Positions 48,443 to 49,188 of a stretch of DNA of 52,847 nucleotides are shown here, piece after piece. Below the pieces are notes generated by a model. The model ran no database searches and was not told the origin of the DNA. It saw only the letters and a list, made by a program, of their open reading frames with translations. The stretch comes from Candidatus Acidiferrales bacterium (GTDB lineage: Bacteria > Bacteroidota > Ignavibacteria > Kryptoniales > JAKASW01). Within the stretch, counting starts at the first letter, position 1. Each line of letters opens with the position of its first letter. The stretch is taken from the NCBI GenBank assembly GCA_035515795.1, contig DATJAY010000001.1:1-52847 (forward strand). Direction: 5' to 3'. Position numbers and translations under genes: made by a program.

Positions 48443-48517
48443 CGGGGCGTGGCTCAGCCCGGTTAGAGCGCTTGGTTCGGGACCAAGAGGTCGTGGGTTC
48501 GAATCCCACCGCCCCGA
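48443..48517 (+). tRNA. tRNA-Pro (anticodon CGG)
   Basis: Full cloverleaf: acceptor CGGGGCG (48443-48449) pairs with CGCCCCG (48510-48516) and discriminator A; D stem GCTC/GAGC; anticodon stem CTTGG/CCAAG with loop TTCGGGA, anticodon CGG at 48478-48480; T arm GTGGG-TTCGAAT-CCCAC. CCA is not encoded. Upstream A+T-rich TATATTATAAG is a likely -10 region, and AACCTTT/AAAGGTT (48398-48425) could pair. Its 3' part recurs twice downstream as tRNA-like repeats. Confidence 0.95.
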
Positions 48518-48584
48518 CAGATTATTTCGCATATATCTTCTGAGCGGTAACATTTCTAATAGATATCAAAACTAAGTATGGGAG
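48518..48584 (+). pseudogene. Remnant of a deleted GIY-YIG cassette copy
   Basis: The 67 bases between the tRNA and the first tRNA-like repeat match both ends of the intact GIY-YIG unit. Just after the tRNA, TATTTCGCATATATC is identical to the start of the intact gene (48649-48663), and near the other end AGATATC and AAACTAAG match bases just before the second repeat. The middle, about 240 bases, is missing. This supports a former second copy removed by internal deletion. Confidence 0.65.
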
Positions 48585-48641
48585 TTAGAGCGTGGCGCGT
48601 TTCGCGCCAAGGTCATGGGTTCGAATCCCACCGCGCCGACA
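48585..48641 (+). repeat. tRNA-like direct repeat, left copy
   Basis: 57 bases: TTAGAGCG (D-arm end), the palindrome TGGCGCGTTTCGCGCCA where the tRNA has its anticodon arm (both 17 bases), AGGTC, a T arm with one altered base (ATGGG...CCCAC) and the acceptor half CGCGCCG. It differs from the right copy (48894-48950) at two positions. The 5' acceptor half and D stem are missing, so it cannot be a working tRNA. Confidence 0.85.
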
Positions 48642-48645
48642 GAGA

Positions 48646-48897
48646 ATGTATTTCGCATATATCATCCAGAGTGAGAAAACCCTCAGATATTACACAGGTA
48701 GCACGAAGGAACTTGAGAACCGTTTGATGAGACACAACAACGGAGACACTCCTTCAACACGAAGAGAGGTTCCCTGGAAACTGGTACATTTCGAAGAATT
48801 TCAATCGCGTTCCGAAGCTGTAAAAAAGGAAATGGGAATAAAGTCTCGCGGAGCCGCAAGATATCTGGAAGATGTTGAAACTAAGACAAGCACTTAG
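48646..48897 (+). CDS. GIY-YIG nuclease family protein (UPF0213/YhbQ-like)
   Basis: 83 aa from the ATG at 48646. Single GIY-YIG domain: YFAYIIQS and RYYTGSTKELENRLMRHN carry the two signature triplets (AYI and YTG), the conserved Arg and the HN pair; FEEFQSRSEAVKKE holds the likely metal Glu region. No DNA-binding domain is attached. The frame stays open upstream to a GTG at 48592 inside the left repeat, and its stop TAG lies inside the right repeat. Such small proteins are possible structure-specific or homing-like nucleases; activity here is untested. Confidence 0.85.
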   Translation: MYFAYIIQSEKTLRYYTGSTKELENRLMRHNNGDTPSTRREVPWKLVHFEEFQSRSEAVKKEMGIKSRGAARYLEDVETKTST

Positions 48898-48950
48898 AGC
48901 GTGGCGCGTTTCGCGCCAAGGTCGTGGGTTCGAATCCCACCGCCCCGACA
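48894..48950 (+). repeat. tRNA-like direct repeat, right copy
   Basis: 57 bases, identical to the left copy except at 48924 (G for A) and 48944 (C for G). At both places it agrees with the real tRNA-Pro, so its T arm and 3' acceptor half match the tRNA exactly, while the anticodon arm is the same 17-base palindrome as in the left copy. It contains the TAG stop of the GIY-YIG gene and ends 16 bases before the DUF167 gene. Confidence 0.85.
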
Positions 48951-48966
48951 CTTCATACCATCACTA

Positions 48967-49188
48967 ATGTATCTGAAAGTTAAAGTCCATCCTTCATCTA
49001 AACGCGATGAAGTAATACAAAAGGCTCCGGACAATTTCGAAGTATTCCTTCGCGCGAAACCCATCGAAGGCAAAGCAAATGAAGCTCTCCTCATTTCTTT
49101 GAGCAAATTCTTGAAAGTTTCACGCTCAAAGATTCGCTTGATTAGAGGGTCATCATCTCACAATAAGATTGTCGAATTAATACATTAG
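48967..49188 (+). CDS. DUF167 (YggU/UPF0235) family protein
   Basis: 73 aa from the ATG at 48967. The family landmarks are VKVHPSSKRDEV, VFLRAKPIEGKANEALL and the ending IRLIRGSSSHNKIVEL. This is a small alpha-beta protein found throughout life with unknown function. The frame is open upstream through the right tRNA-like repeat, giving a false N-terminus that should be ignored. Confidence 0.9.
   Translation: MYLKVKVHPSSKRDEVIQKAPDNFEVFLRAKPIEGKANEALLISLSKFLKVSRSKIRLIRGSSSHNKIVELIH

Follow-up and report, generated by a model that had tools for sequence, protein, structure and literature searches.

Small GIY-YIG nuclease genes with hairpin-bearing partial tRNA copies: a candidate class of mobile elements at bacterial tRNA genes

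The tRNA-Pro locus and its nuclease

The stretch of DNA analyzed here (the window, 52,847 nucleotides) carries an intact tRNA-Pro(CGG) gene at positions 48443-48518 of the forward strand (ARAGORN; Rfam RF00005, 69.8 bits), which is the host gene of a nested element composed of two units on the same strand. Unit 1 (48523-48641) consists of a decayed GIY-YIG gene and a tRNA tail, unit 2 (48646-48950) of an intact GIY-YIG gene and a second tail, and the element is followed by a gene of the host flank, DUF167/YggU (48967-49188, forward strand; PF02594), which marks the orthologous locus in sister species. The two 57-nt tails, recovered by repeat search at 48585-48641 and 48894-48950, differ from one another at exactly two positions and match the tRNA-Pro gene in the last part of its D arm, in the T arm, and onward to its 3' end. 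In place of the 17-nt anticodon arm, each tail carries a 17-nt palindrome (TGGCGCGTTTCGCGCCA at 48593-48609 in the first copy; 48902-48918 in the second), whose arms TGGCGCG and CGCGCCA enclose a three-base TTT loop and which occupies the same position in sister species. A first-pass annotation of the window had described the intact tRNA, the paired repeats around an 83-aa GIY-YIG gene, and the likeness of the repeats to tRNA-Pro, and coordinates and sequence comparison agree with it on each of these points; what it missed was the decayed first gene at 48523-48584.

This decayed gene is the start of a GIY-YIG gene fused to its end by an internal deletion. Its left part (48523-48540) is identical at 17 of 18 positions to the start of the intact gene (48649-48666), its right part (48542-48584) is identical at 27 of 43 positions to that gene's 3' end (48851-48893; p about 1e-6), and so the first codons and the 3' end alone are retained before the tRNA tail begins. 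The intact gene (48646-48897, forward strand) starts with the ATG at 48646 and ends within the second tail, its TAG stop codon (48895-48897) being the TAG of the D-arm sequence TTAGAGC. No integrase was found among the open reading frames at 43.6-52.5 kb of the window.

The 83-aa product resembles UPF0213/COG2827 proteins, and GIY-YIG is the sole Pfam domain that it matches (PF01541, E 1.9e-14). In a profile comparison with the PDB, the best-scoring structure was the UPF0213 protein 1zg2 (E 2.8e-11), with SLX1 at 1.6e-5 and I-TevI far behind at 0.3, and matches to homing-endonuclease PHROGs were absent or weak. On these Pfam and PDB sequence matches the fold can be taken as settled, and the proteins group with UPF0213 and SLX1, apart from the SegB/I-TevI subfamily. 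As in UPF0213/COG2827, the GIY-YIG domain stands alone, at about 80-100 aa and with no separate DNA-binding domain, and residues Y5, Y16, G18, R26, and E62 are invariant among 20 members, showing that the catalytic residues are intact. A phage origin was considered and rejected, the nearest phage matches reaching at most about 40% identity at an E value of about 1e-5; a plasmid origin was rejected as well, as plasmid matches are weaker than the phage ones. On the two viral contigs examined out of three, no tRNA lies beside the gene.

Recurrence and anatomy at other tRNA genes

The window's genome (4.08 Mb) harbors about ten GIY-YIG relatives. Five of its tRNA genes, those for Pro, Val, Gln, Met, and Ser, are adjoined by GIY-YIG genes, and at the latter four the order recurs, from intact tRNA to GIY-YIG gene to an incomplete copy of that tRNA in which one arm is altered; the tRNA-Ser locus continues with a second GIY-YIG gene. 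The same build at these four other tRNAs, together with the 57-nt repeat and its two mismatches, excludes chance. A census of all tRNA genes in this genome and in G317, a closed genome from the same class, found scarred copies at 5/5 GIY-adjacent tRNAs versus 1/39 others in the former and at 4/4 versus 9/39 in the latter; with both genomes pooled, 9 of 9 GIY-adjacent tRNAs carry a scarred copy (Fisher p 1.8e-7).

Beyond these genomes, a five-member profile retrieved 217 relatives from a collection holding one genome per species. Among the best 80 of the 217, a same-strand tRNA lies within 150 nt of the gene in 63, a proportion that describes the nearest relatives of tRNA-linked queries and is not valid for GIY-YIG genes at large. 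The gene follows the tRNA in 44 of the 63 (type A) and precedes it in 19 (type B). By comparison, no tRNA occurs in the surrounding DNA of any of 30 loci of a sister GIY-YIG subfamily from the same phylum (63/80 versus 0/30, p 3e-15). The nearest members of that sister subfamily are themselves embedded in dispersed CATTGCGAG / GAAGCAATC repeats (L006 1500-1780 and L008 1490-1785 in the window's genome; L235-L239, L241, L246), and they perhaps constitute a second repeat-associated GIY-YIG system. Hosts in the 80-locus set span about ten phyla, among them Bacteroidota, Kryptoniota, Ignavibacteriota, Cloacimonadota, Fidelibacterota, Myxococcota, Thermodesulfobacteriota, and some CPR bacteria, and they include cultured genera such as Draconibacterium, Marinifilum, and Flavobacterium. 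Of 296 genomes sampled from the window's phylum, 189 have a relative with an E value of 1e-8 or better, a count based on the gene alone, irrespective of any tRNA neighbor. The combination of repeat and GIY-YIG gene, for which the first-pass annotation had proposed a search of other genomes, is found in many of them.

The region after the gene resembles the adjoining tRNA specifically: its mean alignment score is 53 against its own tRNA and 19.6 against tRNAs of other labels, means alone being given here since the upper end of the control is contaminated by same-family tRNAs under another label. Type A copies represent the 3' part of the tRNA, and type B copies represent the 5' part and precede the intact tRNA. 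The first-pass proposal that the element targets the tRNA 3' end therefore fits the window and the type A copies but does not hold as a rule, as the mirror-image versions carry 5' halves in front of the intact tRNA. Of 34 type B heads, 12 break within the anticodon loop (positions 32-38), versus 3.6 expected; Asp tails often begin at the anticodon, and heads end there. Such breakpoints could be read as what remains of a group I intron in a tRNA or of an island that integrated there, and GIY-YIG enzymes do occur in group I introns. Rfam detected no group I intron in the window segment or at four further loci, its matches being to tRNAs, and with units of only about 300 bp and the lack of an integrase among the reading frames around the window locus, a relic of either kind is scarcely credible.

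A hairpin takes the place of an arm or loop of the copied tRNA, in many cases that of the anticodon arm. A perfect stem of at least 6 bp is present in 104 of 126 copies, but 53 of 126 matched intact tRNAs also reach this length, so that a plain count of such hairpins is weak evidence by itself and the TCCCG motif and its position were used instead. TCCCG..CGGGA occurs in 53 copies versus 1 of 152 intact tRNAs, and 102 of the 108 distinct loops of this hairpin have a Watson-Crick first inner pair even though the bases vary. The idea that hairpins land by chance and are seen in the copies only because these are dispensable is weakened by the frequent replacement of a whole arm.

These features lend themselves to an alternative in which the hairpin, rather than the tRNA, directs mobility, on the model of REP/RAYT or IS200/IS605 elements. 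The tail hairpin would be the nuclease's signal in single-stranded or cruciform DNA, units would be excised or copied from hairpin to hairpin, and tRNA homology would merely guide insertion. Occurrence of the TCCCG hairpin across phyla and isotypes speaks for this reading, the conserved inner pairing implies that the hairpin form matters, a structure-specific nuclease, SLX1, is among the relatives of the protein family, short gene-less units with a hairpin exist, and the sparing of the intact tRNA would be accounted for. Against it, lineages differ in their hairpin sequence (GGCGCG..CGCGCC, TCCGCC..GGCGGA, TCAGCC..GGCTGA), and these hairpins are also found at other places in the genomes, mostly at a distance from GIY-YIG genes; we regard hairpin-directed mobility as a possible but distinctly minor contender.

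Across the genomes checked (G000, G317, G261, G214, G160, G063), TCCCG..CGGGA palindromes outnumber a reversed-pattern control 6- to 32-fold, most of them lying away from GIY-YIG genes, and a hairpin unique to the element is ruled out on this count.

Units contain the GIY-YIG reading frame alone, and on closed chromosomes they form tandem arrays of 3-5 nearly identical copies, for example with five units of 315 bp beside tRNA-Asp of G317 and three of 323 bp beside tRNA-Ser of G160. Several matches sit at contig ends, as is expected of units that are repeats. Other arrays have no GIY-YIG gene. In G317, the tRNAs for Cys, Arg, Ser, Thr, Glu, and others are accompanied by arrays of scarred pieces or by single copies without the gene, and downstream of a 5S rRNA gene, identified by eye, lie two scarred copies of its 3' part, with a helix replaced by TCCCGATTTTCATCGGGA (L267 520-860); no GIY-YIG gene lies near these 5S copies among the matches listed. 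In G160, eleven tandem 67-bp repeats combine an upstream region with the 5' part of tRNA-Asn and bear a TCCCGATGTATCGGGA hairpin in the D loop (L265 620-1380). The gene-less arrays may be non-autonomous derivatives, or scarring may proceed independently of a local nuclease gene. In several of the G317 satellites (L308, L311, L312, L320, L326), the T loop has mostly given way to a pair of short adjoining palindromes.

Isotype loyalty, selection, and turnover

A tree of 61 tRNA-linked proteins, built on a short alignment that leaves many forks open, follows the isotype of the adjoining tRNA: isotype changes 22 times on the tree versus 40.4 times after shuffling, and none of 200 shuffles gave so low a value. 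Proteins group by isotype for Pro, Gln, Met, and Gly, and the Asp group is common to several phyla. Host phylum structures the tree as well (21 changes versus 35.8 shuffled), and much of the distribution may therefore be vertical. In the pairs that allow measurement, dN lies far below dS (e.g. 0.06 versus 0.32 and 0.09 versus 0.43), indicating that the protein is maintained by purifying selection.

Isotype loyalty, together with tandem repeats adjoining the gene and alteration of the anticodon arm in many copies, could also suggest a pairing of toxin and decoy, in which the GIY-YIG protein cleaves the cognate tRNA and the scarred tandem copies act as RNA decoys, comparable to type III toxin-antitoxin systems. 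The copies are halves, which prevents the tRNA fold from forming, the related GIY-YIG structures are those of DNA nucleases, and no match to a ToxN-like toxin was obtained, the window protein having its single Pfam domain; a toxin-decoy function is accordingly very improbable.

Turnover of the element is evident at the window's own site. The tRNA-Pro gene adjoins the DUF167 gene in 13 of 13 species of the genus, with a CGG anticodon in 12 and TGG in one, and this site holds an intact GIY-YIG gene in 3 species, short units in 2, probable stubs in 3 (one clear, one fair, and one assigned by its likeness to the second), and nothing in 5. Gain, loss, and truncation of the element have thus taken place among sister species, and the empty tRNA-Pro site for which the first-pass annotation had suggested looking in relatives is one of several states, full and truncated ones being found alongside it. 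Four sister species (L022, L025, L029, L031) have the tRNA-Pro next to DUF167 in the opposite orientation to that of the window. In one genome (G002), three short units at tRNA-Pro(CGG) retain just the gene start and the last codons and closely match an autonomous pair at tRNA-Pro(TGG) of the same genome, from which it follows that the element has occupied two tRNA-Pro loci and that shortened derivatives arise by internal deletion. In another (G011), the TGG gene is occupied and the CGG gene is empty.

These data also bear on the view that the tRNA satellites are by-products of recombination, made harmless by hairpins, with the GIY-YIG gene as a passenger or a domesticated host gene instead of the driver. 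Such a view can draw on the scarred copies at 9 of the 39 GIY-less tRNAs of G317, on those at its 5S rRNA gene, and on the imprint of host phylum in the protein tree. It sits poorly with the presence of a copy at every GIY-adjacent tRNA of the two censused genomes, with the absence of tRNAs from the sister subfamily's loci, and with isotype loyalty, and short units can derive from an autonomous unit by internal deletion; on the whole we consider it unlikely, somewhat more so than mobility directed by the hairpin.

A proposed homing-type cassette and its relation to known systems

The explanation that we favor, with slightly better than even confidence, is that of a selfish tRNA-gene cassette which behaves like a homing endonuclease gene and uses pieces of its target as homology arms. 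It brings together what is observed of the element: its build, its loyalty to an isotype, its tandem arrays and truncated derivatives, its presence and absence among relatives, its occupancy of two loci in one genome, and purifying selection on its protein. The unit would comprise a minimal GIY-YIG gene and part of the host tRNA, in which a perfect hairpin stands in for one arm, and one intact tRNA would remain beside the array. The nuclease would cut the tRNA gene or a cruciform formed by it, and repair from a unit-bearing copy, with the element's tRNA pieces serving as homology arms, would insert the GIY-YIG gene and its tail. Because the two ends of the element are pieces of its target, such repair would restore the missing part of the tRNA, which would come in with the gene and leave the tRNA functional. 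Repeated out-of-register repair would yield tandem arrays, and the hairpin would either remove the cut site from the tails or be the nuclease's own signal.

Several points count against this homing-type cassette. The intact neighboring tRNA is unchanged, and a site defined by tRNA sequence only should still be cut there. The proteins belong with UPF0213 and SLX1 rather than SegB or I-TevI, and they lack a DNA-binding domain apart from the nuclease. Some scarred copies have no GIY-YIG gene nearby, those behind a 5S rRNA gene included, and the same genomes contain many TCCCG hairpins at other places. Homing of this kind does not account for the sparing of the intact tRNA or for the use of a hairpin, and on both of these the alternative in which the hairpin is the signal does better.

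The nearest known case is SegB, which T-even phages encode as a free-standing GIY-YIG homing endonuclease. It cleaves tRNA genes internally at RAWTSGAAC and promotes tandem amplification of its tRNA segment, within a GIY-YIG/tRNA association that recurs in phages (PMC13096335). RAWTSGAAC corresponds to the tRNA T loop on the other strand, a reading that is ours and not the paper's. That the cassette protein cuts tRNA genes is suggested by its protein family and by SegB. The two systems share a GIY-YIG nuclease adjoining tRNA genes and tandem amplification, but SegB resides in a phage genome beside a tRNA cluster whereas the cassette is tied to one tRNA, and half-tRNA copies and hairpins belong to the cassette and are not described for SegB in the accessible text (PMC13096335).

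Free-standing homing endonuclease genes more generally resemble the cassette in having a nuclease of this superfamily and a patchy presence at one orthologous site, and differ in that the cassette proteins match UPF0213/SLX1 structures and homing-endonuclease families only weakly. The small UPF0213/COG2827 proteins (PDB 1zg2, 1ywl) and SLX1 have the same domain at a similar size, with E values down to 2.8e-11; to our knowledge, none of them has been reported as tRNA-linked, tandem, or mobile. The tRNA-targeting integrative elements, islands with a tyrosine integrase, likewise leave an intact tRNA and a partial copy at the far end. Unlike them, the cassette has no integrase, is built of units of about 300 bp, uses either half of the tRNA, converts an arm into a hairpin, and forms tandem arrays. 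REP sequences and RAYTs similarly pair short palindromes and a small nuclease gene with gene-less copies, but the cassette has a GIY-YIG instead of an HUH (Y1) enzyme and is anchored on tRNA genes of one isotype.

A search of the open-licence literature turned up no account of bacterial GIY-YIG units that combine half-tRNAs, hairpins, and isotype loyalty. Judged from that literature, the element as built is likely to be of a new kind, though its working principle probably resembles that of homing endonucleases. The first-pass interpretation, which knew of no named system with this build, is partly supported: its compact, integrase-free GIY-YIG element with tRNA tails is borne out by the same build at other tRNAs and by the gains and losses seen. 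Taken together, the data make it reasonably probable that these loci represent a widespread, undescribed class of mobile elements parasitizing tRNA genes, and perhaps 5S rRNA genes, in which autonomous isotype-specific GIY-YIG units and half-tRNA satellites derive a hairpin from a tRNA arm and their ends from the host tRNA, and in which integrase and transposase are lacking. If so, a large bacterial group would harbor an overlooked parasite whose ends come from host tRNA genes, and the cutting of tRNA genes by phage GIY-YIG enzymes would be linked to a chromosomal lineage. One origin of annotated partial and pseudo tRNAs would be accounted for, and nucleases of about 80 aa, possibly specific for tRNA genes, would become available for study. 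Such elements would also allow one to test how a selfish element occupies an essential gene without breaking it.
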